From a virus: a stretch of DNA of 26,941 nucleotides. Location of the stretch: IMG/VR virus record IMGVR_UViG_3300025112_000150, positions 1 through 26,941 of that record; one strand, written 5' to 3'. Both the position numbers and the translations under genes were made by a program. The stretch's first letter is position 1, and the number at the start of each line of letters is the position of its first letter. The notes beneath the pieces were generated by a model. The model was not told the DNA's origin. It saw only the letters and a list, made by a program, of their open reading frames with translations, and ran no database searches. Positions 1,098 through 26,941 of the stretch are shown here, in pieces.

Positions 1098-1976
1098 TTA
1101 CGAACCAGCAGCAGTAGTTACTTGGATAAGGGAAACTGCGTAATCATTAATTACCACAATTCCTACCTCTTCATAAATAACCCAGCCTAAGCGTAATTTT
1201 TTAGGATCATCAGCAGGCAGAACTGTGATATCTTGTCTAATTGGGAATGCGCCAACGGTATCTGGGGATGCGACTACCAGAATTTCGTCAGTTTCCATTC
1301 TCGATGAAACGTGGATATCGGCTGTCCACAGGTGACCGTAGAGACCAGTCGTGATGATTTCACGAGTTGTTGCCTCGTCGTAGAAATCTTTACCGAAGGT
1401 TCTGATTGATGCATACTGGTTAGCATGCAGAACGATCTTCGTAGCAACAAGGTCATGCTGCTCGATCAGACGGAACGCTGTATTCAGCGAAGCGGTTGTC
1501 AGCGTACCAACGTTTGTTACAACTTGTGTACCAAGCGTATTTGCGGCTGCTGTCAAAGCTGCGAAGATGTTAGTATCTTCTTCCTTCTGGATAGCTTCTT
1601 TAGCCTTGATCTGTGCTCTGTCTACGATGTAGAATCTACGAGCCTTGATCTCAGACAGTCTAACAGTTGGGTGAGCAGCGATCTCGAACGTAGGAACGAG
1701 AATTTCTTCGCCTTCCTGGATCTGATCTGGTACAGCCCCCCTACGAGCGATAACGTGTGCGATTGCAGCAACGTCGCGTTCGTAACGAGCAAGTGCGCCC
1801 TGTGGAAGTTCGTCAACCATCAGAAGCTTACGTCCAACAGCTTGATACTCCAACGAACGTCTGATAGGTTCTACCATAGCTTGCGCCAAGGCAACTCTAC
1901 CTTCATCGGTGTTCAGAGCTTGTGCAATGATTTCTTCTTTTTGCGAATCAGTAAGTGAATTTTTTGCTAAAGCCAT
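1098..1976 (-). CDS. Major capsid protein, HK97 fold, 292 aa
   Basis: This protein forms the icosahedral head shell. An N-terminal helical arm (1-45) is followed by RRSLEYQAVGRKLLMVDELP, a probable E-loop strand pair with EGEEILVPTFEI at about 88-99, a long spine-type helix (IKAKEAIQKEEDTNIFAAL, about 122-140), and a C-terminal P/A-domain region with VLHANQYASIRTF and VIYEEVGIVVINDYAVSLI. The order and length match HK97-fold capsid proteins that lack a fused delta (scaffold) domain, which fits a separate scaffold in the upstream 1906-aa gene. The start is secure: AGGAG stands seven bases before the ATG. The bases look richer in G and C than the surroundings, as expected of a highly expressed gene. 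It sits directly after the decoration gene and before a strong terminator. Fold assignment is by sequence feel and gene order. Confidence 0.88.
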   Translation of the reverse strand: MALAKNSLTDSQKEEIIAQALNTDEGRVALAQAMVEPIRRSLEYQAVGRKLLMVDELPQGALARYERDVAAIAHVIARRGAVPDQIQEGEEILVPTFEIAAHPTVRLSEIKARRFYIVDRAQIKAKEAIQKEEDTNIFAALTAAANTLGTQVVTNVGTLTTASLNTAFRLIEQHDLVATKIVLHANQYASIRTFGKDFYDEATTREIITTGLYGHLWTADIHVSSRMETDEILVVASPDTVGAFPIRQDITVLPADDPKKLRLGWVIYEEVGIVVINDYAVSLIQVTTAAGS

Positions 1977-2633: not shown

Positions 2634-5600
2634 TTATCTTCCGTATTTTTGACGGAGTTCTGTGTCTGGAATACTGTCGGCCTCTTTGTTTCTTATGTCT
2701 AAGCTAAACAAACCTTGCAGAGATTTTGTCAATTCAGTTTGCTGATCAACATGTTCTGACTGTGCTCGTTTTTCTGTACTAGTCTCAGAGATAAGTACGG
2801 CTGGCCCTTCTAATCCGTCAGACGAAGCGTCGAGTCCTTTTTTCACAAACATACCCTTCTCAAGGTCAGCCAATTGATTTGGCTTGTAAGCAGAAAGTTC
2901 TGCTACCTTGGTTGCAAGCTGGCCGACTTCAATGAGTCCGCTTTGCAGCATTCTACCAGCTAATGCGTATGCTTCTTTTGTTACTTTGGAATCTTCCTTG
3001 CTACTCGCAAGTGCTCCGCTATCAGTTTTTCCTGTCATTTGATCTTCTTTTTCTGGAGCGATTTTTTCATTGTCTTTTTCGCCGCCAATTCGATCATCTT
3101 TTGTAGGAATATCTGGTGTATCTTTAACAGGATCTGGCTTATCGCCAATAGATTCCTGTTCGTTACCTATAAAGTCATTGTCTTCTGGGATGCCATCAGG
3201 TGTAGTTTTTGCTTCAGGGATGTCGCCAATAGACTCTTTTTCATTTCCGATAAAGCTGTCGCCGCTATAAGGCTTTACATCTTCGTCGTCTTGAACTTGT
3301 TCTCTTTTGACTTTCTTTTCGTCAGCATTTTTAACAAGTGTATCAGCAAGAGCGTGAACTCTATCTTTTGTAGATGCTGCTTTCGAATTTCCGGCTCCCT
3401 CTTCGCCGCCAGTTGCTTTGTTATCAAGCTCAGGCTTTAAAGCAGGGTCATCTTTTTCGCCGCCAATCCTGTCGTCTTTCGTAGGAGCGGAAGCGTTATC
3501 TAGTTTTTGTAAATCTGCTGGTTCTGCTCCCATCGTTGCAGTTCCAGTTGGTGCAGAAGGTTTATCGGCGGTGAATGAAGATTCATCGCCAATTGTTGAT
3601 TTTCCAGAATATCCTTTTGCAGTATCTTGAGCGTTCTGAAGACCAATGTTATCGGCTGATTTGTTAAGGACAGCAAGAACTCCCGAAAGGTCCATGTTGA
3701 TCTCGTTTGTCTTGTTAATGTGTCCTTTACTCATTTGAGTCGATTCCTTTACAATGTCTTCGTCCGTCTCTGCCATACGTGGATCACCTTCTTTGTAGTG
3801 TCTGTCTTGTATATTCTCTACTTGCTCTTCAGTTCCTCTATTATTTTCACAATTTTTTAATTCGTCTTGAACTGGAGCGACATTATCTTCGACTGGAGCA
3901 GGTGCTTCGGCGTTATCTGTACCCATTTCCATAGGTTTTGTTTCGCCGCAATGAGGACAACCTTCGCCACTCGCCATATCTTTTTCTTCGCCTTCGATGA
4001 TTTCGTCTTCAATAGCCTCTTCATCATCGATCTCGTCAACGATCTCGTCATCTATCACACCATCAGTTACATCATCTACGATCTCATCAGTTGCGTCTTC
4101 AACGAGATCGTCTGCTCCTTCAATTCCTTCTGGTCCTTCGATTTCAACGTCAATTTCAATGCCTTCATCGATTCCGTCTATATCACTCTCGCCGCCAACA
4201 GCAACTTCAACTGCTTCTGCGACTTGTTCTGCAATTTCTATTGGGAGTTCGATAGTGACTGTAGATTCACCGCCTTCTTCGCCGCCGAACGGATCGAAGT
4301 CGCCTTCAAACTCGCCGCCACCGTCAAAGTCATCTTCAGGACCGTCAAAGTCTTCATCCTCTGTAACTATGTCGCCAATTTCGTCAGAAACGATATCATC
4401 GAACTTAGCGTATTTAGCTTTCATTGTTTGACAGATTGTTGAAGCTTGTTTCAGTTGGAAACCTTCTCTTACATAATCTTCTATGCATTCTTCGGTTCCA
4501 CTCTTATCGCACCAAATATCAGCAACTTTGATAGCGAGATAATTCGAATAAACATCTGCTTTCTTAAGAGCTTTGCAGATTGCGTCACAAAGAAGTTCGC
4601 CTTCGTAAGGACCACTCAAAGCTACAGCATCAAGACCATATCTTCGTGCAATTCTTTCTTTGCAAATTTCTTCTGGGAAATCTTTGACAGGACCAAGAGC
4701 CTGTTTATAGGTTCCTATTACAGATGTAGCAGTACTTGCTGTTTTTGTAAGTCCAGATTTCTTCATAGCAAGAATGACATTACCCTTTTCTTTAGGAGTC
4801 AAAGCATCAAAACCAGCTTCTGTAACATCGCTGGACGCAAGAGCTTTGATGAACATATCTTTCTTTCTTGAGCAATCGTCGCATTCGAAGTCTAACGCAG
4901 TTGGGTTCCATTCCCATTGAGCGTAAATAACTTCTGGTTTATTTTTATTGATTGCGTAAGATACTTTGTAAGCTAACCCAGTATCCATGCATTTTCTTTC
5001 GCCATTAGCGAGTTTAACAGTCTGAGTTGTTCCAGTGAACGGACTAACAGAACCTAACTCGATACCAGCTTCGGAAATTTTAGTTGCTGCTTCTTTGGTT
5101 ATTCTAGCCATTGCAGCAAAGTCCGTATTTGCCATTGCTGGCATTCCAGCAGTTTCGGCTACAGGCTCTTCCATAGCACCAGGTTCTGGGAGTTCAAAGC
5201 CTTCTCCTTCGATTGGGCTTTCTTTTTCAGCACCGTCATCTTGACTGTCGCCAAGAACATCTGCCCATCGAGTTACATTAATAGAAACTTTATATTCGAA
5301 TTCAGATTGACAGTTATTACATTTACCAGCGCCTTTGATGATATCAACATCTTGACTGGTACAAACTGGGCAAACAGAGCCAGGAGGTTTAGGCATCAGA
5401 TCTTCAGTTCCACCTAAATCATCTCCAAGGTCAGATTCTTCGAAACTTTCCATAGGAGGTTGGTTCATTGGATCGCCGCCAGCATTAGGAAGTGTTGCTC
5501 CCGCTCCTGGTCCTTGAGCCGCTCCACCTTGCCCACCCATCTCGCCGCCCAACATCTGAGCTTCTTTGACTAAAGTCTTTCTTCTCTCTTGTCTACTTGC

Positions 5601-8354
5601 TAAAACAGTACCGTTCTCTCTAGCTTCTTCTAGTTCTTCATCTTCCCAATCATTTATCATTTTTTCTTTTTTTAATCTTTTGTGTTCCTTAAGTTTGTCT
5701 TTTCTAGACATGAAAGGATTCATTTGATTCTCAAAGTCCATTTCTGGCTTACGATTACGTTTGAAATCATCGACAGTATCGATTGCGAACTGAGCAACAG
5801 ACGTTTTCTCTTTTTCTGTTAAAGCATTAACATCTTTAACTGTTGCAACTACGACTCCAGCCCTCTCGTCAACATCTATGTTTGTAATAGCTGTTTTAAG
5901 ACCGCTGTCATTAATCTGCTCGTCTGCAAATTTATGAGTTGCTTTTACAAAAGCCTTTTTGTCTTTTATGTCTGCCACAATTTCGTTAATAGAAGCTTTG
6001 ATCTGGTAAAGACCGTCTTCTTCTCTACCAAGTTCGTTGATAGCTGAATCAAACTGTGCTGTTTTGGATACAACTTCATCAACTGAAGGTCCGTTAGCAA
6101 GTTTGATTTTAGCAGATTCTTCAGCCTGCTTTAAACCTTTTTCGCTAGAAAGAACATGCTTAGATCCTTCGATAAGATCGTCAGCACTAATGTCTTTAAG
6201 GTTGCTACTCATGCTTGCGATTAAAGCGTCAACTGCATTTGGAGTCTCTACGCTTGACGATGCAAGCTTCGAGAAGTAGTTGTATTTACTCTTTTCTGCC
6301 GCAATAGCTTCTTTTTTATTAGGCATTGCGTTTACTAAAATAAGCATCGCTGCTTTATTGATGTTTTTAGGATCATTGATGAAAGCTGCTGCCTTCATAA
6401 CTTCAACAGGAGTTTTATTGTAGAAAGCGATTGTGTCAGAAACAGAATCCATAGCTAATTTAACAACCTTTGTTGGATCAAACGCATATGCCCAACGAGC
6501 AAGGTCGCCATCCTGCTTAGGAAGCTGCTTTTCGGTGATAACATCCCAATCTACATATCTGTGATGAGATAGGAAATCGCCCATTTGTTTTTCTGTTACG
6601 ATGTCATCTTGACTCTTGCTAAGTTCAGAACCGATTAAACGACTCATTTCGGTCCATTGCTTTTCAGTTATAACTTCTGGATAGTCGCCCCAACGAGCAA
6701 CATAATCAGCAGTAACGCTATTGAATTGTTTTTCAGTAATAACTTCATAAGATCCAGTACGTTCTTGTGGGCTAGGCAGTTTACCTGTCAAACCAGCATC
6801 TTTGTGTTTATTAGGATCATTAAGTTGCTTTTCGGTAGTAACATCTAGGTTTTCGTTCCATTGCTGCCCCGCCCCTTTATCCTTTTCAGGCAGTTGCTTC
6901 TCAGTGATGACATCTGTAGAATGTGCTTCAGCAGTCTTTTCAATATCAACATTATTTTGACTGTCTTTGTTGGTGTCGGCCATATTTAACTCCTTATTTG
7001 ATAACATATCATGAGATATTCTTGTAAGATTTTTACTTAGTTTATTAAACTTCTCTATTAATATTTGAGAATGTTTTAAAAAGTCCTCTTTTTTTCTTGA
7101 TAATTTTGGAACAGTTACAGTCCCAAGACCACTCATATCAGATTGTTGCGTTCCAACAGGTTGAGTCGGAGCCGCTGGTTGAAGAGGTTCAGCACCAGGA
7201 AGTGGCTGTTGTTCAGCACCTAACTCTTCAGATCCTTCTTTTGGAAGCTCTATACTTTCCGCTCCAGTTAACTGCGGAGAAGGAAGCTGTCCATAGCCCA
7301 TTTCTGTAAGTTCATCAGAAATATTTTGCATTTCAGCTAATGTTTTTACTAAATCACTAACATATTCCATTGAAACATACTTTTTTTGAGCCATTAATGA
7401 TTTAGCTACTTTTTCAACAATATCCATAGCAGTGACAAGCTCATCTAACTCTTGCTTGCCAGCAACTTTTTGCATTTGCCCATCTATAGAACAAACTCCA
7501 GAATTGCAACCCTGAGCTTCAGCCATTTTAATAACTCTATTTTTAAGTGAAGCAACCTTCTGTTCCATACCAGTCTTATTGAATATTTCTTGAACTAAAC
7601 AATCATGACAAGCAGGATTTACTACAAATGAATCTTCGATAAATTTGATACCAAAGTTATGCTCATATATCTGAGCTTCTTTATATTCATTAGTTTGACT
7701 ATCTTTTGATGTAGATCCGCAGATAGGACATGTGTCTTCGTGTCCTTCTATCTTTATAGGACTATCGTGATATGAACATTTTTGTTTACCGCTAAATTTC
7801 TTATTCTTTCTATGTTTTACGCAATCGCAATATTCGTCAGCTACAGATGCACAGTTGTGACAAATGCTGCAAATGGAAGATGTTACGGAACAACCCATAG
7901 AAGTTCCAGTTACGATTTCTTGCTCAACGCCTCTAGCTAGAGAGGGCCATGCAACTCTATCAACTCTTGCGATAGTATATATGCCACCTTTTGTTCTATC
8001 GTACCAAGCATGAACAATAATACCTCTTGCTTTTTCAATATCATCATTTTGGTGATTGCAGAAGACAGGAACGCCAACGAAAGAAGGTGTTGCTTTAATT
8101 AGTTCGCCTTCAGAGAAAGCATCTCCATTATCATTAACTTCATCTTTTTTAATAGCAAATATTTTTACAAATAAATGTTCTGGGTGTTTTCCAATTGCAG
8201 ATTCAATATCAAAACCACCTAAATCAGATTCTCTATTTTTCATAATAGAAGCGGTTTTAACACGTTTCATATTATATTCAGTCCAATCAGGTCTGTTGAG
8301 AGGATCTACTTTTTGGATAGTTAAATTGCTTGTTGCTGTTTTTTTAAAAGCCAT
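2634..8354 (-). CDS. Giant prohead protease-scaffold polyprotein, 1906 aa
   Basis: Residues 1-260 look like a prohead maturation serine protease. A probable catalytic His lies in FCNH (H101), a probable Ser in GTSMGCS (S152), and a strand FGIKFIEDSFVVNPA follows at 234-248. Extra Cys pairs (C162/165/168, C176/178, C209/212, C249/252) suggest zinc knuckles inserted in the protease. Then come a Pro-rich linker (355-410), a helical stretch, six (V/I)xTEKQ repeats (482-611), helical scaffold-like regions, a zinc ribbon at C995/998/1012/1015, a Cys-rich helical region (1230-1310), a very acidic belt (1319-1458), a CPHCG knuckle at 1466, IGGE/IGNE repeats (1597-1761) and a helical C-terminus. Typical proteases of this class are about 200 aa, so most of this protein is probably scaffold that is later cut out. 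The RBS is AAGGAC. An internal start at M458 is described separately. The protease call is good; the rest is inference. Confidence 0.82.
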   Translation of the reverse strand: MAFKKTATSNLTIQKVDPLNRPDWTEYNMKRVKTASIMKNRESDLGGFDIESAIGKHPEHLFVKIFAIKKDEVNDNGDAFSEGELIKATPSFVGVPVFCNHQNDDIEKARGIIVHAWYDRTKGGIYTIARVDRVAWPSLARGVEQEIVTGTSMGCSVTSSICSICHNCASVADEYCDCVKHRKNKKFSGKQKCSYHDSPIKIEGHEDTCPICGSTSKDSQTNEYKEAQIYEHNFGIKFIEDSFVVNPACHDCLVQEIFNKTGMEQKVASLKNRVIKMAEAQGCNSGVCSIDGQMQKVAGKQELDELVTAMDIVEKVAKSLMAQKKYVSMEYVSDLVKTLAEMQNISDELTEMGYGQLPSPQLTGAESIELPKEGSEELGAEQQPLPGAEPLQPAAPTQPVGTQQSDMSGLGTVTVPKLSRKKEDFLKHSQILIEKFNKLSKNLTRISHDMLSNKELNMADTNKDSQNNVDIEKTAEAHSTDVITEKQLPEKDKGAGQQWNENLDVTTEKQLNDPNKHKDAGLTGKLPSPQERTGSYEVITEKQFNSVTADYVARWGDYPEVITEKQWTEMSRLIGSELSKSQDDIVTEKQMGDFLSHHRYVDWDVITEKQLPKQDGDLARWAYAFDPTKVVKLAMDSVSDTIAFYNKTPVEVMKAAAFINDPKNINKAAMLILVNAMPNKKEAIAAEKSKYNYFSKLASSSVETPNAVDALIASMSSNLKDISADDLIEGSKHVLSSEKGLKQAEESAKIKLANGPSVDEVVSKTAQFDSAINELGREEDGLYQIKASINEIVADIKDKKAFVKATHKFADEQINDSGLKTAITNIDVDERAGVVVATVKDVNALTEKEKTSVAQFAIDTVDDFKRNRKPEMDFENQMNPFMSRKDKLKEHKRLKKEKMINDWEDEELEEARENGTVLASRQERRKTLVKEAQMLGGEMGGQGGAAQGPGAGATLPNAGGDPMNQPPMESFEESDLGDDLGGTEDLMPKPPGSVCPVCTSQDVDIIKGAGKCNNCQSEFEYKVSINVTRWADVLGDSQDDGAEKESPIEGEGFELPEPGAMEEPVAETAGMPAMANTDFAAMARITKEAATKISEAGIELGSVSPFTGTTQTVKLANGERKCMDTGLAYKVSYAINKNKPEVIYAQWEWNPTALDFECDDCSRKKDMFIKALASSDVTEAGFDALTPKEKGNVILAMKKSGLTKTASTATSVIGTYKQALGPVKDFPEEICKERIARRYGLDAVALSGPYEGELLCDAICKALKKADVYSNYLAIKVADIWCDKSGTEECIEDYVREGFQLKQASTICQTMKAKYAKFDDIVSDEIGDIVTEDEDFDGPEDDFDGGGEFEGDFDPFGGEEGGESTVTIELPIEIAEQVAEAVEVAVGGESDIDGIDEGIEIDVEIEGPEGIEGADDLVEDATDEIVDDVTDGVIDDEIVDEIDDEEAIEDEIIEGEEKDMASGEGCPHCGETKPMEMGTDNAEAPAPVEDNVAPVQDELKNCENNRGTEEQVENIQDRHYKEGDPRMAETDEDIVKESTQMSKGHINKTNEINMDLSGVLAVLNKSADNIGLQNAQDTAKGYSGKSTIGDESSFTADKPSAPTGTATMGAEPADLQKLDNASAPTKDDRIGGEKDDPALKPELDNKATGGEEGAGNSKAASTKDRVHALADTLVKNADEKKVKREQVQDDEDVKPYSGDSFIGNEKESIGDIPEAKTTPDGIPEDNDFIGNEQESIGDKPDPVKDTPDIPTKDDRIGGEKDNEKIAPEKEDQMTGKTDSGALASSKEDSKVTKEAYALAGRMLQSGLIEVGQLATKVAELSAYKPNQLADLEKGMFVKKGLDASSDGLEGPAVLISETSTEKRAQSEHVDQQTELTKSLQGLFSLDIRNKEADSIPDTELRQKYGR
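3072..3482 (-). repeat. Duplicated TKDDRIGGEKD and FIGNE-ESIGD peptide repeats
   Basis: Two copies of TKDDRIGGEKD (residues 1625-1635 and 1751-1761) flank two copies of FIGNE(K/Q)ESIGD (1701-1711 and 1728-1738) in the C-terminal part of the giant protein. The DNA copies are similar but not identical, which suggests an old internal duplication retained at the protein level. Confidence 0.8.
6522..6914 (-). repeat. Six VITEKQ-type repeats in the protease-scaffold protein
   Basis: The motifs are VITEKQL (482), VTTEKQL (505), VITEKQF (538), VITEKQW (561), IVTEKQM (585) and VITEKQL (605). Spacing is 20-33 residues with unrelated linkers, often containing W, Y or D residues. T-E-K-Q is invariant and always followed by a large hydrophobic residue. 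The DNA of the copies differs at synonymous sites, so the peptide, not the DNA, appears to be what is conserved. Confidence 0.9.
6981..6995 (-). promoter_or_regulatory. Internal Shine-Dalgarno and in-frame ATG (Met458) inside the protease-scaffold gene
   Basis: AAGGAG (6990-6995) stands six bases before an in-frame ATG at 6983 (Met458 of 1906). This is as good as any gene start in the window. It lies after the protease domain and just before the VITEKQ repeats. Initiation here would give a 1449-aa protein without the protease, the same arrangement as lambda C/Nu3. The K-E codon pair AAG-GAG is not the usual AT-rich choice here, which hints at selection. It could still be chance. Confidence 0.5.
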
Positions 8355-9079: not shown

Positions 9080-9511
9080 TCAACCTTTTATGTGCCTAGG
9101 GATTTTAACAGGAGCTAGATTACTTTCATTATACTTCTGTTGCCCTTTAGGGAATGGTATTCCCCACATCTCTACCGCGTGACTCAAGGCAGATAAAATA
9201 TTAGTAAAATACTTCCCACTCGGAGCATAAGCTTTCACCTTTTCTTTTTTATATCTTGGAGGAAGCTTTTTAACTCCTGCAAAGAAAGATTTCTGACCAC
9301 TTTTTTGGACTGCTGGACCGACAACGACAAAATAGTCTGCATTTGTTGTATAATCGTGTCCCTCCCATCGATGGTACGAACCGGGTCCAATCTCTTTGTC
9401 AAAACGCTCTTTTAGTGGAGCAGATCTTTCATGGTAAGTTTCATCCCAACGGATGCCCCTATCACGAATTCTTTTTCTACTAGCGAATTTTAAAAGATTG
9501 AATGTTTTCAT
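9080..9511 (-). CDS. Unrecognised basic protein, 143 aa, coupled to the portal gene
   Basis: The start codon overlaps the portal stop codon by four bases (ATGA), so translation is probably coupled. The protein is basic and aromatic, begins MKTFNLLKFASRKR and contains GPGSYHRWEGHDYTTNADYF, a block with KKLPPRYKKEKVKAYAPSGK, and SALSHAVEMWGIPFP. There is no membrane segment and no recognised catalytic motif. The N-terminus resembles the start of two other proteins in the window (see findings). Position directly after the portal suggests a head or neck protein, as an inference only. Confidence 0.75.
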   Translation of the reverse strand: MKTFNLLKFASRKRIRDRGIRWDETYHERSAPLKERFDKEIGPGSYHRWEGHDYTTNADYFVVVGPAVQKSGQKSFFAGVKKLPPRYKKEKVKAYAPSGKYFTNILSALSHAVEMWGIPFPKGQQKYNESNLAPVKIPRHIKG

Positions 9512-12500
9512 GTTCCAATTAAATACATATATCCCAGATTATCATCCAACTCTACCTTTTTGTATATAAGTTTAGCCGGATCGCCTTCTGAAATTTCATT
9601 AGCTATTTTAATCATTTCGCCATCTTCTGCACTTTTCCTTTGTTTAATCGAATCTTTAATGTTTTTTATAACAACATCTCGTACCGCATCAATACGTTCT
9701 TCTATAGCCTCTTCATTAAATCTCAGTATTCTCCAACCAACGTTAGATAGTTTTTGGTCTCTTTGAATATCATGTGCCTTTGAATCAGCTTGATCGTGCC
9801 AAATAGAACCATCTGCTTCTATTCCCATACCTATATTTGGAATAGCAAAGTCTATAACATATGGTTGCTGCTCTCCAGCGACTGGGACTTTATATTGAGC
9901 GAATGTTTTTAGCTCAGGTGGTAAACCTAAATTCATAAGCATTTTATACATTCTACCTTCTAGTTTTGTGAGCTTAAGCATAGGTTGAGGTTGAGGCTCT
10001 TGTTCTTGAGGACCATTCCCTTTGCCTCTTTTTTCAACTTTTAATGGAGGTTCCATGCCGCCTGCTGCTGCTCCCATACCGGGTGCTCCTCCACCCATAG
10101 GCATTCCTCCACCCATATCTCCGCCAGGCATACCGCCAGGCATTCCACCTCCCATGTCCATACCGCCAGGCATTCCACCTCCCATGTCCATACCGCCAGG
10201 CATTCCACCTCCACCCATGCCCATACCGCCAGGCATTCCTCCACCGCCCATCTGACCGCCAGGTCCAACTTGAACAGCTTCTTCTCTCAATCTCTCAATC
10301 TCTTGGTCATAATCTAAATCAAATTCTTCTAACAATGTTTGAGATGAAATTAACTGTTTATCATGGAGTTGTACAAGCATTTGTTTTTGACTAGAAGTAT
10401 CTCTGAGTTGCAGATCGTTCCATTTTATAGTTGGATGGAGATAAACAGTCTCACCGATCTCTTTGCTTTCTTCCTCATCAATGAATCCTTGCATCATTGC
10501 AATAGGAAGGAAAATATGTTGTTCAATCCATTCTGCCAACTGAGCACGCCAACTTTCAAGTCTTCTTATCATAACTTCTACGCCAACTTGAGCAGCAGAA
10601 TTTCCTTGAATTGTTATTTTGTCATTACGTTTAGTAACAAATAATCCATGGGGAACAGTAAAACAATAAACTTTGCCTGAATAGCTTTTTTTTGTAATTT
10701 CTTTACCGTTTTTATCTTCTCTTTTTGTTTCAAGTGTAGGATATTTTCCTTTGAATCCTTTAGATAGCGTTAGAATGTATTGATCATGTTTTGTGATATA
10801 TTCATGACCAGTTTTATTGAAATATTTTTTAGATTTATTTTCTTGTATTTGTTTTACTGTTCTCATCGCAACAGAAGTAGTATATCCACATTTAAACGCT
10901 ATCTCTTCTATGTCTTGAGTCAATTGCTTGCTAGATGTAAGATACTTGTAGTGCCCGTTTTTTCTACCATCATTAGAGAACATATGTGTTCCATCACCCA
11001 AAATAGCGGATTTAAGTATAACCTCTAAACATTCTTTTGATAAATTTTTAACCCAACTAGGAATGCGTTTAGTAGTAGAGCTTCCTCCAAAATTATCCTT
11101 AAAGTAGTTAGCTAAATCTTCATTGTATGTTATAAAATCTTTTTCAGTTTTATGATATTTTTCAAAGCATCTGTTATATAAATCAGACACCTGACTATAA
11201 GCGTTGCCTTTTTTAGTCTGACTTATAGCGAAACTTTTAACTTTCCCTCTATCTTTTTTAGCATATCCTTCTGAAACATAAAATCCAGCAAGTTCACAAA
11301 AATCATATATAGAATATTCTTGTTCTCCTACTTTAACACTTTCTTGATAGTTCCCATCAAAATTTTCTACGCAACCAATTAGTTTTGCTCTGCGTTTTAC
11401 ATCTTTGGCTTCTATAAATCTAAACCCATCTTTTTCACGAGGTTGTACATACATTCTATGGTTCGGCGTAACTAGAATATCTATCTTGTCAGTATTAAAA
11501 TGGACTAGATCTCCTTCATAGTCGAAAACATGTTTTTGACTATAATTGTGATATTCTAATGCTTTTGTATCCGGATTATAACAACCTATTTTGTCTTCAT
11601 TGGTTATTTCATCATATTTTTTAAAACCAGAATCAGTTAATGTTAACGTATCTTCGCTATGACAGTAACTACCCATTTCCCCGTTTAATAATGCTTGGTT
11701 TAACATGAAACCGTCAAGAAGTTCTTTTCCAATATAGTCAAGTTCATTGTTAATATTATGTATCTTGCCGGTATTACCACAAATAGCTACTTTCCCATTT
11801 TTTCTTATAAAAACCCAACTATTAGGGACTTTAACACAATAAACTTGTCCATCATATTCTTCTCTCAAAATGTGTTGTTTTCTTAAATTGAATTTAACAT
11901 TTTTTCGTCTTTCAGAACAATAAATTCTATATATAAGTTTTTGATTAGGATTCTTTTTACTATTATCTTCTGTACTTATAGTTGGCCAGTATCCTATTTT
12001 TAAACAAATCTCGGACCAATTATCAGCTAACTGTTTTGATATTGTAGTGTATCTGTGACGATGGGTTTGCATATCAGTTCTTGATCCACCGTCTCCATCC
12101 ATCATCGCTTTATATATAATTTGTAATTTATTTTTAGGGAGATCTAGTATCCATTTAGGAATTTTTTTATTCCAAGAATGCGAACCAAACTCTTTAGATA
12201 AATATCTAGCTATTTTTACACTATTAATTGTAAAAAGCTCACATCCGTTTCTGCGTTTGTCGCTATATGTAGAGTATGATGGATAAGCGGTAGCTACAGA
12301 GGATTCAATAGAATTAAAAGCTGCGTTTGTTTTACTTTGACTGATTGTGCAAGCTTGAATTTGTTTTTCTTTTTTTAACCCTTTATTCGTTTCTTCTTTG
12401 CTTCCACCTTCTGTAATGTAATACCCGACAAATTCGAGATACTCTTCTAGTGAAAGATGATTTAACGGAGAATCTGCATATGGAAGTTCATCTGGGGTGC

Positions 12501-13866
12501 TTCCTATCCAATCTGTTGTAGATAATAATTTGTCATTGTGTTTTATATTTTGTGAATAAACTTCTTCTAATTTACCTTTTCTTTCTATAAGCATCCTGTG
12601 ATTAGGCGTAACATTAATATCAACTGATTTTGCTTTGAAGCGATATGTCTCTCCAAACAAATCAGAATTATAATAGTATTCATGGTATTCATCAGGATAT
12701 TGATATTCCATCTGTCCTGTTTCTTCATTATATGTAGCTACAGTTTCTTTTTTATTCAAATCTTTAAATAGCTTCCAACCTTCAGATGTTAATATTTCTG
12801 TACTGTCATCATAGCAGGCACCATGCCATTCGTAATCAAAAGCATGGTGAGTAACTAACGTCAAGTTAGGATCATTTGCAACAGCAGAAAGCTGATTAGA
12901 AACGTCAGATATGTCTTGTGGACCAGCCGGTCTGTCTTTGTCTCCTATTTTTACAACTCTAATAGGAAGAATAAGTCTTTCGGCTACAATCCAGTTAGCT
13001 GTCATTAACTTCGTTTTGTAAGCAAGAATGGTGAACGCCCTTCTAAGCAACGGATTACCATATGCCCCATAAGGACTTGGATTGTGTTTAATATGGCTTA
13101 CAGACCTATTAGAGAGGGGTATAGGAGCACCAGTAGACACTAGCTCGATCAATCTTTTAGGTAAATTGTCATAAATCTGTTTTGGTCTTTTTCTTTGGAC
13201 AATCATTCTTAATTCTTCATCTGGAACTAGGGCGATTACTGGTTCAGATACCAGCGGGTTCATTTGTACTTCAATCCAATCAGGATTAAGTATGACGATT
13301 CTACTTATAGATCCGCCTGAGTGATTGCATGATTCTCCATTCGGAAGTGTGCCGGTTCCACCGCAATGGTGACAAGTTACTTCTACCCAAGGAAAAACGT
13401 CACCAATAAGAAAGTATTCATGACTGATAAGTTTTGCCCAATGATTGATTCTTAATCTTTTGGTTTGACGTTCATAATATTTAAGAACTTTTTTATTCTT
13501 GCATTCAAGTTTAAATCCATTGACTGGGAATGTAGAGTAGAAGTCAACGGCTGCTGCTACTTTGCATTCGTTATCGTAATAGAATCTGACCCATTGATAT
13601 ACTTCTCTTCTTCTGGAAGCAATCTGCCAGTTTTGAGGCGTGTGAAGTGGGCTAAAGAACATAGGTTGCGTCCAAATAACGGATGCTCCTGATCCAGCCA
13701 TTTGTGCGCATTTGGTGACAGGCATGTTAGCTGTAAGGCTACTAGCTAATCCACTTTTGTTTTGATAGTTATTTCCACTCCCAGTGCTATAACCCTTTGT
13801 CGAAGCAACCAAGGCTTTCTTTCCTTGAGTGTCTTTTTTTAATAATGAAAGTTTTGTGATAGGCAT
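9508..13866 (-). CDS. Portal protein with two inteins and a C-terminal DUF559/Vsr-like nuclease domain, 1452 aa
   Basis: The portal forms the dodecameric DNA channel at one head vertex. After removal of both inteins (351-698 and 735-1089) the extein is 749 aa and reads smoothly across both joints. Portal features include a long N-terminal region with SPLHTPQNWQIASRRREVYQ, a DnaJ-like zinc knuckle CHHCGGTGTLPNGESC (165-180), RRAFTILAYKTKLMTANWIV in the wing, and a helical segment EMGSY/SAAQVGVEVMIRRLE beside the second joint. A Gly-Met-Pro tract (1201-1270) links to residues 1300-1400, which look like a DUF559/Vsr-type PD-(D/E)XK nuclease: VIDF (D1339), GIEADG (E1350, D1352), H1357, then QRDQKLSNVGWRILRF. 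The RBS GGAGG is strong. The downstream 143-aa gene overlaps by ATGA. Portal identity is supported by motifs and by gene order with terL and the capsid gene. Confidence 0.85.
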   Translation of the reverse strand: MPITKLSLLKKDTQGKKALVASTKGYSTGSGNNYQNKSGLASSLTANMPVTKCAQMAGSGASVIWTQPMFFSPLHTPQNWQIASRRREVYQWVRFYYDNECKVAAAVDFYSTFPVNGFKLECKNKKVLKYYERQTKRLRINHWAKLISHEYFLIGDVFPWVEVTCHHCGGTGTLPNGESCNHSGGSISRIVILNPDWIEVQMNPLVSEPVIALVPDEELRMIVQRKRPKQIYDNLPKRLIELVSTGAPIPLSNRSVSHIKHNPSPYGAYGNPLLRRAFTILAYKTKLMTANWIVAERLILPIRVVKIGDKDRPAGPQDISDVSNQLSAVANDPNLTLVTHHAFDYEWHGACYDDSTEILTSEGWKLFKDLNKKETVATYNEETGQMEYQYPDEYHEYYYNSDLFGETYRFKAKSVDINVTPNHRMLIERKGKLEEVYSQNIKHNDKLLSTTDWIGSTPDELPYADSPLNHLSLEEYLEFVGYYITEGGSKEETNKGLKKEKQIQACTISQSKTNAAFNSIESSVATAYPSYSTYSDKRRNGCELFTINSVKIARYLSKEFGSHSWNKKIPKWILDLPKNKLQIIYKAMMDGDGGSRTDMQTHRHRYTTISKQLADNWSEICLKIGYWPTISTEDNSKKNPNQKLIYRIYCSERRKNVKFNLRKQHILREEYDGQVYCVKVPNSWVFIRKNGKVAICGNTGKIHNINNELDYIGKELLDGFMLNQALLNGEMGSYCHSEDTLTLTDSGFKKYDEITNEDKIGCYNPDTKALEYHNYSQKHVFDYEGDLVHFNTDKIDILVTPNHRMYVQPREKDGFRFIEAKDVKRRAKLIGCVENFDGNYQESVKVGEQEYSIYDFCELAGFYVSEGYAKKDRGKVKSFAISQTKKGNAYSQVSDLYNRCFEKYHKTEKDFITYNEDLANYFKDNFGGSSTTKRIPSWVKNLSKECLEVILKSAILGDGTHMFSNDGRKNGHYKYLTSSKQLTQDIEEIAFKCGYTTSVAMRTVKQIQENKSKKYFNKTGHEYITKHDQYILTLSKGFKGKYPTLETKREDKNGKEITKKSYSGKVYCFTVPHGLFVTKRNDKITIQGNSAAQVGVEVMIRRLESWRAQLAEWIEQHIFLPIAMMQGFIDEEESKEIGETVYLHPTIKWNDLQLRDTSSQKQMLVQLHDKQLISSQTLLEEFDLDYDQEIERLREEAVQVGPGGQMGGGGMPGGMGMGGGGMPGGMDMGGGMPGGMDMGGGMPGGMPGGDMGGGMPMGGGAPGMGAAAGGMEPPLKVEKRGKGNGPQEQEPQPQPMLKLTKLEGRMYKMLMNLGLPPELKTFAQYKVPVAGEQQPYVIDFAIPNIGMGIEADGSIWHDQADSKAHDIQRDQKLSNVGWRILRFNEEAIEERIDAVRDVVIKNIKDSIKQRKSAEDGEMIKIANEISEGDPAKLIYKKVELDDNLGYMYLIGT
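10131..10210 (-). repeat. 30-bp tandem repeat coding for GMPGGMDMGG units
   Basis: Two identical 30-bp units (10131-10160, 10161-10190) and a 20-bp partial third copy lie in frame in the portal gene. Diverged copies continue on both sides from about 10041 to 10270. They encode the Gly-Met-Pro linker between the portal core and the nuclease domain. Slippage would change linker length in 10-residue steps without breaking the frame. Confidence 0.9.
10600..11664 (-). mobile_element. Intein 2 in the portal (355 aa, LAGLIDADG type)
   Basis: It begins with Cys735 (CHSEDTLTLT) and ends with Asn1089 in ITIQGN, followed by Ser1090. Block B is VTPNHRM, identical to intein 1, and block F is VYCFTVPHGLFV. 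The LAGLIDADG motifs are LAGFYVSEGY (E866) and LKSAILGDGT (D958). It again has Gly-Asn instead of His-Asn at the C-terminus. Only 36 extein residues separate it from intein 1. Confidence 0.9.
11773..12816 (-). mobile_element. Intein 1 in the portal (348 aa, LAGLIDADG type)
   Basis: It begins with Cys351 (CYDDSTEILT) and ends with Asn698 in VAICGN, followed by Thr699 as the +1 nucleophile. Block B is VTPNHRM (about 419-425) and block F is VYCVKVPNSWVF. The homing endonuclease core has LEFVGYYITEGG (E476) and IYKAMMDGDGG (D590/D592), so both acidic LAGLIDADG positions are present. The penultimate residue is Gly, not the usual His. Confidence 0.9.
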
Positions 13867-17580: not shown

Positions 17581-19173
17581 TTATTTTACTAGACGGAAAT
17601 ACGACTTTGCTGCAACCTCTCCAATCGATGAGGTAAAATTTCCTGATCCCTGTTGTGCTCCAATAGATGAAGTATGTTGATCTGTCCATGCTGTCTGTGC
17701 TGGTGCTGCTGATGCCATTCCATCGCTATTTTGTTCAAATAGATCTTTTAATATCGTAGTAATACTTCCTTTTATTTGTGACTGTGCTCCTGTTGGGCTA
17801 GGTACGGCTTTTATATAGTCTGTAAGCAGAGGGAGAATAGGCTGAAACGCATTTACTAAAGCCTTATGAACAGTTACATTGTTTAACTTCTGTCCCTCTT
17901 GTTGTGGTTGTTGATCCGCTTGCGGTTGAGCGTCTAAAAACTGCTTGACAGCACTTGGAAACGCTTGCCTCAGGTTTTCAGCAATCTGATTAAAATTTTG
18001 AGCAGATTTTCTAATAGTAAAGCGAGATCCGGCAGCTTTATTATTTCGCAAAACAGCAGTTAATTGAGCTTGATCTTGGGGATTTAGTGCCAATAAAGCC
18101 CTAGTCACTTCTTCTTCGTTTTTTCCCTGTATTGCTCCAAGTAAAGCTTGTATAGGAGTCATTTGTTCTTGTCCTTCTGTCTGCTGTTGTACTTCTGCTT
18201 GCTGTTCTGTTTGTTGGACCTTTTGTAATATTGTGTTTAAAGTTGTAATACCTTGAATAGCAGTGTTATTAAGAGAGTTAGGATCAGTCGATATTTCTAG
18301 TTGGGTAATAATCGGTCTAACTTTATTTTCAAAATCTCTTTGTATTAACTTGACTCCTCTTGAAGAAAAAGGACTAAACTGTCTTGCATTATTTTCATAT
18401 ATTTGTAAATAATTGCGTCCATCTTCATACTGAGTACGAAGAAGTTGTTTACTTTGATTATTAAGAAGTTTTCCTTTGTTGTTTTTTATTTTTTCTAAAT
18501 GAGACATTAAAATTTTAATTTTATCTACAAAAGCAGATACCATTCTTTGATAATCATCGCCCTTACCTTTCATTGCGTTCCATGCATCGCCCCAAAACCC
18601 GGCCTCTTTGATTATTTCCTGAGCCTCTAGTGCTAATGATTTCGCTTCTTTTTTGAATCCCTTTTGACCCATATCTTCAGCGAACTGTAACATTGAGTTA
18701 GCTAGTTTTATTTGGTCTTTTACGTATTCGGCTTTTCTTTGTTCTATTGTGTCGTAAACAGCTACAGTAGGGAACATTCCGTTTTCTACTTTTTCAGCTA
18801 CAATCTTTTTAAAATAATCTTGTTCAGCTTTTATTACTTTTTGGTCAGCTTTACTAAATTTCATTTGTTTTTCATCTTGAGCGTATTTTTCCCATCCACT
18901 TGTAGGATTGTTAATAGATTCTACATACTCATTTTGACATTCTTGCCAAACGACTTGTGATGCCTTTTTAGGAGTTTCTGCTCTTTTCTGTCTGTAACAG
19001 TTGCTCCAGCATCTTTCGTTACGAATCCAGTAACCTTGTACGCCAACATATTGAGCAGTTTTAATCTGCACTAAAGCGTCAGCGAATTTGTCTATTTGAG
19101 ATGCCAATTTAATTCTTTTTTGGCTATCTAGTGAACTTGCAATTTTTGTAAGGTTTTGAACTATTTTTTCCAT
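17581..19173 (-). CDS. Large helical, Gln-rich probable virion protein, 530 aa
   Basis: The start reads LTKIASSLDSQKRIKLASQID, an amphipathic helix. A striking conserved-looking block follows at 48-83: YWIRNERCWSNCYRQ with C55 and C59, then WQECQNEY with C79. The middle is long alpha-helical (FSKADQKVIKAEQDYFKKIV; LQFAEDMGQKGFKKEAKSLA). Residues 310-345 and 410-425 are Gln-rich and look flexible. The C-terminus repeats TSSIG twice. It joins the WYL-like gene by TAATG, with AAGGA before the ATG. Size, helicity and position suggest an internal head, neck or ejected protein. No homologue could be named with confidence. Confidence 0.75.
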   Translation of the reverse strand: MEKIVQNLTKIASSLDSQKRIKLASQIDKFADALVQIKTAQYVGVQGYWIRNERCWSNCYRQKRAETPKKASQVVWQECQNEYVESINNPTSGWEKYAQDEKQMKFSKADQKVIKAEQDYFKKIVAEKVENGMFPTVAVYDTIEQRKAEYVKDQIKLANSMLQFAEDMGQKGFKKEAKSLALEAQEIIKEAGFWGDAWNAMKGKGDDYQRMVSAFVDKIKILMSHLEKIKNNKGKLLNNQSKQLLRTQYEDGRNYLQIYENNARQFSPFSSRGVKLIQRDFENKVRPIITQLEISTDPNSLNNTAIQGITTLNTILQKVQQTEQQAEVQQQTEGQEQMTPIQALLGAIQGKNEEEVTRALLALNPQDQAQLTAVLRNNKAAGSRFTIRKSAQNFNQIAENLRQAFPSAVKQFLDAQPQADQQPQQEGQKLNNVTVHKALVNAFQPILPLLTDYIKAVPSPTGAQSQIKGSITTILKDLFEQNSDGMASAAPAQTAWTDQHTSSIGAQQGSGNFTSSIGEVAAKSYFRLVK

Positions 19174-23969: not shown

Positions 23970-24725
23970 TTAAATAAACTCGTTTGGATTGTCTTTCTTA
24001 TACTGTTCGTAATCTCTTTCTTCTTGTTCTCTTTCTTCTCGCTCGTCACCTTCAATGTCAGCTTGATCGGCTCTGTAGTCTTCGTCAGCAGCAATATCCG
24101 CTTTATGATCTGCAAGAATTCTCATTTTATTAGCATTGATGCTATTTACGATGAGTTGTTCGTCATTGGTCAAATCTCTACTCTGCGAAGCGGCTTGTTT
24201 ATAAACGTGATACAGCATTGCATCAGCGTCAGATAACAAAGAAGCCTTCTTATCAAAAGATGGATTGCTTTTATTGAAATCTTCTCTTGAATCGTAGTTA
24301 GATAGAAGTTGACTGCCTTGAACGTTATTCTTAATTTTTTTACCGCCTCCTACAAGAGCGTCCCAGAAGGCTTTATTTTCTGCTGATAGGTTTCCCTTAT
24401 TCTCTTTATCAAAGTCTTTCTGTGCCTTTCTGGCAGTTTCCAAGGGCATATCCATGAGGACAACGCCTTTGTCTCCTCTTGTATCTACAGATGAGCCAGT
24501 CCCAACATTAAGTTGTTTTTCTAAAATGATAGAATCAGATGCATTGCGAACGTCTTTAAGCTGCTTTTCTCCGATCTTATCTCCTTGTGGGTCTTTTCTG
24601 TCATCTTTAAGCTGTTTGTCAGTTATTACAGCGTCTCCATCCTGAGAAACACCATAAAATTTGTTCTGTTCTTGCAGCATTTTTTCAGTCGGTTTAATTT
24701 GGGCTTGTTTTTTAAAGTTATACAT
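23970..24725 (-). CDS. EKQL-motif protein next to terL, 251 aa
   Basis: The N-terminal 75 residues carry three copies of the motif found in the giant protease-scaffold: VITDKQL (33-39), IGEKQL (51-56) and IILEKQL (66-72). Two of them are followed by K-D-x-R. Helical segments come next (ETARKAQKDFDKENKGNLSA; ADAMLYHVYKQAASQSRDLT), and the C-terminus is a highly acidic helix (about 210-245). The start has TGGAG upstream. There is no catalytic motif. Shared motifs with the protease protein suggest that it is a substrate or partner of head assembly, although it is encoded beside the terminase. Confidence 0.75.
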   Translation of the reverse strand: MYNFKKQAQIKPTEKMLQEQNKFYGVSQDGDAVITDKQLKDDRKDPQGDKIGEKQLKDVRNASDSIILEKQLNVGTGSSVDTRGDKGVVLMDMPLETARKAQKDFDKENKGNLSAENKAFWDALVGGGKKIKNNVQGSQLLSNYDSREDFNKSNPSFDKKASLLSDADAMLYHVYKQAASQSRDLTNDEQLIVNSINANKMRILADHKADIAADEDYRADQADIEGDEREEREQEERDYEQYKKDNPNEFI

Positions 24726-24805: not shown

Positions 24806-26698
24806 TTATCTATTAAAAGCAGATGGTGGGACACCTGTATTTTGATTTCGTTGAGGTTGTCTAGTTTCCATCTGTCTTGCTACCTGACCGCCAGGTCCAG
24901 TTCCATATGACGCTCCACTCATAGATCTCCAGTTAATTGCGTTACTACTCGGCACAACTCCCATATTGACTAATCTGGCTCCCGGAAGTTTATGAGCTAC
25001 AGCATTCATTGAAATATAACATGCACCAGCAAGAGCATCTGTCAAATCGTCAGTTCTAACATCTCCATCTTTAGGAGCACTAACCCTAAATCCTTTTACA
25101 GTTGTCTTCCTTTGTAAATGAAGCATTTCATCTTGCATTAGTTTATGTCTGGGTATCCAAATTTTATCGCTATTCATCAATACTTCCAACTGAGTATATA
25201 TCGCCATTTTATATTGAGCAGAAAAGTGAGTACATTTGGCTGGTACTCCTGCCTTTTTAAGTTTCTCAATACTTTGTATGGAATTCCAAACATCATATGT
25301 AACCATACCTAAATGGAATTTTCTTCTTAAATTGATGACATAATCATCAACCTCTTCTATTCTAACTGGTTTTCCTGGTAATGGTTTCCAATATTTTATC
25401 TGATCAACAACTATCCTAAAATCAGATTTGTTTGTTTCTGTATTTAAATACCTTTCTCTATGTATGATAACAAGAGCATAGTTGTGACTTGTAGTCGCTG
25501 GGTCTAGGTGAGCAAAGTACGTAAATCCTGCTCTTCCTGTTTCTTGTAACTCAAGTCCGGGTTTAAAGCATCCTATAACTTTATCTCTCACGAAGAAGCT
25601 CTCACCACCGGTACCAGAGAACTCTGCTCCATACTCCATCAAAAAGTCTTCTGCATTCATGGATTCGTTGTTTTTTCTTAATGACTTTTCGGTCATTTTT
25701 GGATTTACGTGCCATGTAGGAAGTTTGCACATTAATCTATCTTGTACTAGATGGGCTTCTTTATAAAGTCTGTGGAACAGTCCCTCTTCGCCTCTAGGAG
25801 ACGAGATACAAACAAGTTTACTATCTAGTACTCGCTCTGTTTGTTCTTCTCCATTTTCGTCAATAACTTTTATGTTGCGACCAAATGTTTCCAAACTAGG
25901 GGTAAGAGCGGTAAATATTCTTTCGCCGGAAGAAGCTCCGCCTGAAGTTTTATAACTTGCAACTTCGTCCATCAGCAAAACGAATATCTGCTTACCAAGC
26001 AGAGCGTCAGAGTTACTGTGTCCAACTTCTACAACGATAGAACCTTTAGTTCTTGATTTAAACAAATCATTGTTTTTTTTGTCTTGTGGAGTCAATAGGA
26101 AAATTTTGTTCGCTTCTATTCCATCTGGTATAAACTTATTTTGGAAGTAAGGAGAATAAAGAATTCTTGTTTTGACTTCATTAAACGCAAGTTGTGCCTG
26201 AGGAGCGGCAGTAGCAACCGTCAGAATCGTAATTGGGTTTGAATCACTTAATCCATAAATGGCATAAGGGTTTCCTCCAGCACATTCAAGAAGCCTCATA
26301 GCTTCGTATGCCATAATAATCCCACACAAGAAATCCTTTCCTGATCGTCTTCCCCATATCAGAATTAGTTGTCTGAATACTTCCGTTTGTTCAAACTTTG
26401 ATAGTAAGTCTCCTCTCTCTTCAGTATTGCATCCTATGTCTTTACACATTTGAATTTCTTCTTCTGTCAAAGTTATGTTTTTATTTCCTACAGAACCTCT
26501 ATAGAATATTTTTAAAATCAGTTTTTGCATAGGGTAAAGTGTAATCCCCTGTCCACCAAGATCTAGATATTCCTTTTTTTCGCAAAAAGAAACGATATCA
26601 GGAATTGAACTACCAATACCGTCCTTTGAGGATAGCTCTGTCTTCATTTTTTGTATCAAATCTTTAACTGTTTTTTGTGGCTTTTTTGTTCTAGGCAC
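24806..26698 (-). CDS. terL: Terminase large subunit, 630 aa
   Basis: This is the ATPase-nuclease that pumps phage DNA into the prohead through the portal. Numbered from the GTG at 26698: Walker A GRRSGKD (116-122), Walker B VLLMDE (240-245), a coupling-type CISSP motif (297-301), and a RNase H-like nuclease with FAHLDPA (D399), VTYDVWN (D469) and DGDVRTDDLTDALAGA (D550, D551, D554). All key residues are present, so both activities are probably intact. The C-terminal 50 residues are Gly/Gln/Asn-rich. I moved the start from a GTG at 26815 to the GTG at 26698, because AAAGGAG stands six bases before it and the longer form would run through the end of another coding frame. The length is within the usual range for large-phage terminases. 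Confidence 0.95.
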   Translation of the reverse strand: MPRTKKPQKTVKDLIQKMKTELSSKDGIGSSIPDIVSFCEKKEYLDLGGQGITLYPMQKLILKIFYRGSVGNKNITLTEEEIQMCKDIGCNTEERGDLLSKFEQTEVFRQLILIWGRRSGKDFLCGIIMAYEAMRLLECAGGNPYAIYGLSDSNPITILTVATAAPQAQLAFNEVKTRILYSPYFQNKFIPDGIEANKIFLLTPQDKKNNDLFKSRTKGSIVVEVGHSNSDALLGKQIFVLLMDEVASYKTSGGASSGERIFTALTPSLETFGRNIKVIDENGEEQTERVLDSKLVCISSPRGEEGLFHRLYKEAHLVQDRLMCKLPTWHVNPKMTEKSLRKNNESMNAEDFLMEYGAEFSGTGGESFFVRDKVIGCFKPGLELQETGRAGFTYFAHLDPATTSHNYALVIIHRERYLNTETNKSDFRIVVDQIKYWKPLPGKPVRIEEVDDYVINLRRKFHLGMVTYDVWNSIQSIEKLKKAGVPAKCTHFSAQYKMAIYTQLEVLMNSDKIWIPRHKLMQDEMLHLQRKTTVKGFRVSAPKDGDVRTDDLTDALAGACYISMNAVAHKLPGARLVNMGVVPSSNAINWRSMSGASYGTGPGGQVARQMETRQPQRNQNTGVPPSAFNR

Positions 26699-26704
26699 AA
26701 TTTG

Positions 26705-26711
26705 CTCCTTT
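26705..26711 (-). promoter_or_regulatory. Shine-Dalgarno that fixes the terL start at GTG 26698
   Basis: AAAGGAG stands six bases upstream of the GTG and seven bases after the stop codon of the upstream gene. The frame-consistent GTG at 26815 has no RBS and overlaps that gene by 98 bases. Confidence 0.75.
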
Positions 26712-26717
26712 AGTCCG

Positions 26718-26941
26718 TTAGCTTCCACCGTCATTAATATTACTTGAATAAATGGGATATCCAACTCTTGCAGAAACATCGGCAAAAAGTTGTCCAACTT
26801 TGATTCCAAATTCACTTAAATAATCATTTATATTAGTATATATAGTATTATCCAAAACATGAAGTTGTAAAGCTCTTACGAAACTACTAATACTATTTTC
26901 TGTTGTGAATCTAGTATTTAGTTTAGTCTCTATTTCTGCGA
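26718..26941 (-). CDS. 3' end of an unrecognised gene upstream of terL (partial, 73 codons visible)
   Basis: An open frame enters from the right edge and ends at TAA 26718-26720. The visible 73 residues look like real protein, partly helical: ISSFVRALQLHVLDNTIYTN (about 17-36), then LSEFGIKVGQLFADVSARVG (41-60), ending in SSNINDGGS. The terL RBS lies directly after its stop, the usual operon spacing. Terminase small subunits often lie immediately upstream of terL, but nothing in the visible part proves that identity. The start is outside the window. Confidence 0.6.
   Translation of the reverse strand, partial: AEIETKLNTRFTTENSISSFVRALQLHVLDNTIYTNINDYLSEFGIKVGQLFADVSARVGYPIYSSNINDGGS

Follow-up and report, generated by a model that had tools for sequence, protein, structure and literature searches.

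A conserved array of six candidate docking motifs in a predicted nested protease-scaffold gene of a virus

The head module and its protease domain

The window, by which we mean the whole stretch of 26,941 nucleotides analyzed here (positions 1 to 26,941 of the IMG/VR virus record IMGVR_UViG_3300025112_000150), carries a head module with genes for the terminase large subunit, the portal, and the major capsid protein (Table 1). A gene for a long polyprotein sits between the portal and major capsid protein genes, with a further gene, for a 181-aa protein, between it and the latter.

Table 1. Positions of genes, domains, motif copies, and candidate processing sites in the window
Feature	Positions	Strand	Basis or remark
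Terminase large subunit (TerL)	26815..24806		Head module
TerL-adjacent protein, 251 aa, no protease domain	23970..24725	-	Motif copies, family search
VITDKQL copy in TerL-adjacent protein	24609-24629	-	
IGEKQL copy in TerL-adjacent protein	24558-24575	-	
ILEKQL copy in TerL-adjacent protein	24510-24527	-	
Portal with intein-like insert	13866..9508		Intein_splicing and LAGLIDADG matches within ORF
Protease-scaffold polyprotein	2634..8354	-	ORF call, 1906 aa; aa 57-189 match PHROG 2774 (E=2e-21) and head maturation protease phrog_18299 (E=3e-11)
Candidate cleavage site K33-T-A35, before protease domain	8250..8258	-	[KR]-x-A in 29/29
Protease domain, aa 43-263	7566..8228	-	H101 and S152 (of S-M-G); AF2 model, pLDDT mostly 80-95
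Candidate cleavage site K266-V-A268, after protease domain	7551..7559	-	[KR]-x-A nearby in 26/29
Predicted long helix, aa 422-459	6978..7091	-	AF2, pLDDT about 33-64, low confidence
Shine-Dalgarno TAAGGAG of internal start	6990..6996	-	GGAG and start codon here in 58/61 relatives
Internal in-frame ATG (M458)	6981..6983	-	Predicted product aa 458-1906, 1449 aa
Candidate cleavage site K473-T-A475, just before repeat 1	6930..6938	-	Nearby in 29/29 and 60/60
Repeat 1, VITEKQL	6891..6911	-	Sequence
Repeat 2, VTTEKQL	6822..6842	-	Sequence
Repeat 3, VITEKQF	6723..6743	-	Sequence
Repeat 4, VITEKQW	6654..6674	-	Sequence; W in 54/61 relatives
Repeat 5, IVTEKQM	6582..6602	-	Sequence
Repeat 6, VITEKQL	6522..6542	-	Sequence
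Candidate cleavage site R620-W-A622, just after repeat 6	6489..6497	-	Nearby in 28/29; within 30 aa in 60/60
Helical domain after repeats, aa 627-720	6195..6476	-	AF2, pLDDT about 76-95
Major capsid protein	1976..1098		Head module

In an AF2 model covering aa 1 to 632 of the polyprotein, the best structural match of the protease domain is T4 gp21 (5jbl_B; VIA-align Z, 9.7 over 128 residues; rmsd, 2.7), and the VZV protease scores highest among the herpesvirus proteases (Z, 8.8). As modeled, the domain has the fold of a gp21/assemblin maturation protease, and H101 and S152, both invariant across the aligned relatives (alignment A4), would by that fold be the catalytic residues. Homology to this domain is also detectable in cultured phages, among them Bacillus phage G (gp19) and Bixzunavirus Alice (gp90), which share 29 to 33% identity with it and a position in the head module. 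Two relatives of the window (L002 and L003) have a 387-aa intein-like insertion, which the window is without, at the active-site motif S-M-G / C-S-V, with a LAGLIDADG match in L003. Two others (L024 and L028) have insertions in the same active-site region, of which there are two in L024, and an Intein_splicing match was obtained in L061, from the same contig as L028.

Six repeats and an internal start signal

The polyprotein contains T-E-K-Q followed by a large hydrophobic residue six times, starting at aa 484, 507, 540, 563, 587, and 607 and continuing with L, L, F, W, M, and L, respectively; nucleotides 6522 to 6914 correspond exactly to D481 to L611. This agrees with the initial annotation, and reading the window protein also bears out its statements that the linkers between copies are unrelated and that four copies have I-x-E at P3 to P1 (I-T-E at aa 484, 540, 563, and 607), the remaining two being T-T-E (aa 507) and V-T-E (aa 587). 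Its placement of the repeats right after the protease region needs correction, since the domain ends at approximately aa 263 and is followed by about 200 aa of helical, proline-rich linker. Exact TEKQ would be expected by chance about 0.04 times in the polyprotein, and at most two copies arose in any of 5000 shuffles. The repeat copies are encoded by different codons and so do not stem from a recent duplication of the DNA.

By pattern scan and profile search we gathered 61 distinct relatives with repeats, on contigs of up to 548 kb. In these the repeats align in register, with six copies recognizable under a relaxed pattern in 40 relatives, five in 14, four in 2, and three in 5, counts that come from mutually related genomes and from an alignment of sequences picked for having repeats, so that they are not independent tests and overstate the evidence. 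The conserved core is I/V-T-x-x-Q-(L/W/F/M): the T is kept in 51 to 60 of the 61 relatives across the six positions, and the Q in 56 to 61 at five of the six positions checked. Of the 360 register cells for the residue that follows T, 294 contain Glu, 57 Gln, and 9 another residue; in two of the relatives, L080 and L104, every one of the six copies has Gln there. Conservation is strongest at T and Q and not at the proposed P1. A strict VIT[E/Q/K]xQ[L/F] pattern, searched at the DNA level, was found in 16 relative records at places consistent with the repeat block, apart from one hit judged by its coordinates (G015 at 154971). A further relative (L110), with the repeats seemingly in a separate ORF, was set aside, its contig being full of frame breaks. 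No VITEKQ repeats were found in the polyproteins of phages G, Alice, Phrappuccino, and Stormageddon, a phage collection searched by tblastn with the repeat region gave no match with E below 4, and open-licence papers yielded no mention of VITEKQ.

Just before repeat 1, an in-frame ATG with an upstream GGAG is present in 55 of the 61 relatives, and TTG or GTG with GGAG in 3 more; of the three relatives without GGAG there, two have AAGGA. At other in-frame ATGs the baseline for GGAG is 158 of 3005 (5.3%). Moreover, the GGAG occurs in different codon phases (22, 1, and 32), and protein sequence alone is thus not its explanation. An internal in-frame start with its own ribosome binding site is the arrangement of a nested protease-scaffold gene of the lambda C/Nu3 type, and on the evidence of sequence comparison a second product, initiated internally at M458, probably starts with the repeats; its role as a scaffold is suggested by the position of the gene between portal and major capsid protein. 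The lambda C protease itself has another fold. Its gene overlaps the scaffold gene Nu3 (PMC8508860); as predicted here, a single frame holds an N-terminal protease and an internal start for the scaffold portion alone, whereas the sequences are unrelated as far as tested, and the scaffold here would be 1449 aa long and carry a repeat array. Possible further internal starts, less conserved than M458, lie near the C terminus (e.g., aa 1527 and 1541). In a group of relatives (L020, L024, and L037) the repeats follow an additional domain, and in L024 and L037 a strong Shine-Dalgarno sequence with an ATG lies ahead of that domain, as a third nested start would.

In two AF2 models, both of low confidence in this region (pLDDT roughly 30 to 60), the repeat block is largely disordered apart from short helices, and neither contains a packed repeat fold. 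These helices start at the residue following T, for all six copies in one model and for four of six in the other, again at low confidence. A Foldseek search of the repeat and helical region against the PDB gave no match. The sequence hydrophobic-T-x-x-Q-hydrophobic matches a helix N-cap with a hydrophobic staple; it would suit a docking motif that forms a helix, but a purely structural role as well.

Motif copies occur, in addition, in the TerL-adjacent protein, which in the window has no family match to a protease and whose best motif score was not reached in 2000 shuffles. Among the relatives, the terminase neighbors in L151, L160, and L169 contain one strong copy and some others weak copies, and in the rest no copies stand out. 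As a second carrier of the motif this protein is convincing only in some genomes. The initial annotation had held that repeats without a linked protease would count against self-cleavage, and the window protein together with some of its relatives provides such a case in a weaker form.

K/R-x-A as a candidate cleavage motif

Among residue pairs at spacing two, K-x-A shows the highest enrichment in a set of 59 polyproteins (2108 observed versus 899 expected; z, 40), with K and A at spacings 1 and 3 to 8 near or below expectation; this limitation to i,i+2 argues against an effect of composition or helices. I-x-E reaches a z of 12, in a count that includes the repeats themselves. The residue following K-x-A is preferentially S (3.05-fold) or Q (2.4-fold), and the enriched K-x-A with S next to it may hint at a herpesvirus assemblin-type site. 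Candidate sites lie on both sides of the protease domain and of the repeat block (Table 1), as traced in a set of 29 intein-free relatives; in the larger set, K/R-x-A is found on both sides of the block in 60 of 60. Observed-to-expected ratios for K/R-x-A are 0.54 inside the block, 2.1 before it, and 2.28 after it. We infer that K/R-x-A is a better candidate cleavage motif than I-x-E, with Ala at P1 and Ser favored at P1'; its enrichment could also reflect another short motif.

The N terminus of the major capsid protein has a conserved EGR[VT]A, but the whole stretch around it is conserved and L070 and L088 lack R-x-A at this place, so that it weighs neither way on cleavage. Several proteins of the head module (530, 402, 251, and 143 aa) also have K-x-A close to the N terminus, as could be expected of processed propeptides, the ORF at window positions 17581-19173 being among them. 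Open-licence papers yielded no mention of a prohead protease together with KXA.

T4 gp21 cuts after I/L-x-E, and herpesvirus assemblins cut between Ala and Ser. The prohead protease gp245 of SPN3US cuts after A-X-E with Ser favored at P1' (PMC10052503). The pattern here would follow the same kind of P3-P1 rule as these two phage enzymes, but with K/R-x-A indicated in place of a Glu-terminated site. With herpesvirus assemblin the candidate sites would share Ala at P1 and the preference for Ser at P1', and with UL26/UL26.5 the gene shares a nested protease-scaffold organization and, in the model, a similar protease fold. The systems differ in that UL26.5 is a separate transcript, whereas the second product here would use an internal ribosome binding site, in the Lys/Arg at P3, unlike assemblin sites, and in the repeat array, which has no known herpesvirus counterpart. 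Polyproteins of the phage G gp19 and Bixzunavirus type likewise have K/R-x-A above expectation, and gp19 contains LEKVAS shortly after its protease domain, comparable to K266-V-A268 of the window; unlike the window, gp19 and Alice gp90 yielded no VITEKQ repeats.

Possible roles of the repeat array

In one of its two readings, the initial annotation proposed that the repeats may be where the linked T4 gp21-type protease cuts its own polyprotein, after I-x-E. The gp21-like fold of the modeled domain, the four I-T-E copies in the window, and the prevalence of Glu in the register cells speak for this. However, Glu at P1 is not conserved as in a T4-type I/L-x-E site: it is replaced by Gln in copies that retain T, Q, and the hydrophobic residue, and an I-x-E protease would not cut any of the six copies in L080 and L104. 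Conservation peaks away from P1, the enrichment of I-x-E falls far short of that of K-x-A, and another candidate site brackets the block. On the strength of the Gln replacement and the K/R-x-A pattern we rejected cleavage at I-T-E; the T-E-K-Q repeats are probably not cut sites, and self-cleavage there is highly improbable. The same bracketing sites, together with the depletion of K/R-x-A inside the block, would suit a cargo peptide that is released in the head by K/R-x-A cuts and either stays with the DNA or is ejected with it, yet the block, lying at the beginning of a product predicted to be initiated internally, is better placed for a scaffold role, and we regard cargo as quite improbable. 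A structural role, in which the repeats self-associate or form a solenoid on assembly through helix capping by T and Q and bind no other protein, accords with the N-cap and hydrophobic-staple pattern and with the model helices that start at each T. The mostly disordered prediction, the varying linker lengths, and the motif copies in a second protein make it unlikely, though less so than cargo.

The binding motif that the annotation had offered as an alternative fares better, being favored by the predicted disorder, by the helix that follows each T, by a Q that hardly varies, and by the second carrier in the head module. We therefore consider it rather likely that the locus is a nested protease-scaffold gene with a docking array of six motifs at the start of the scaffold, bracketed and not cut by the protease. 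Translation from the first ATG would give the protease-scaffold fusion, and translation from the internal ATG, which is conserved and has a Shine-Dalgarno sequence of its own, the scaffold alone, starting with the six repeats. Each repeat would be a short linear motif in a mostly disordered chain, with the T capping a short helix. The array would most likely dock the scaffold on a head protein, be it the major capsid protein, the portal, or another head component, with avidity arising from about six copies. Cleavage after K/R-x-A outside the repeats would free the protease domain and release the repeat block whole. More tentatively, and as less likely than not, we suggest that a gp21-fold protease with K/R-x-A, Ala/Ser-preferring specificity is combined with a docking address that the TerL-adjacent protein shares, both carriers binding the same head component.

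Beyond a few model systems, little is known of scaffold recruitment and removal in very large phage heads. This family makes the question testable: the motifs of its array can be mutated one at a time, a second product is predicted, and the predicted cleavage rule is closer to that of herpesvirus assemblins than to that of T4. If this rule is true, processed head proteins would become predictable here and in the relatives of phage G and the Bixzunavirus phages.
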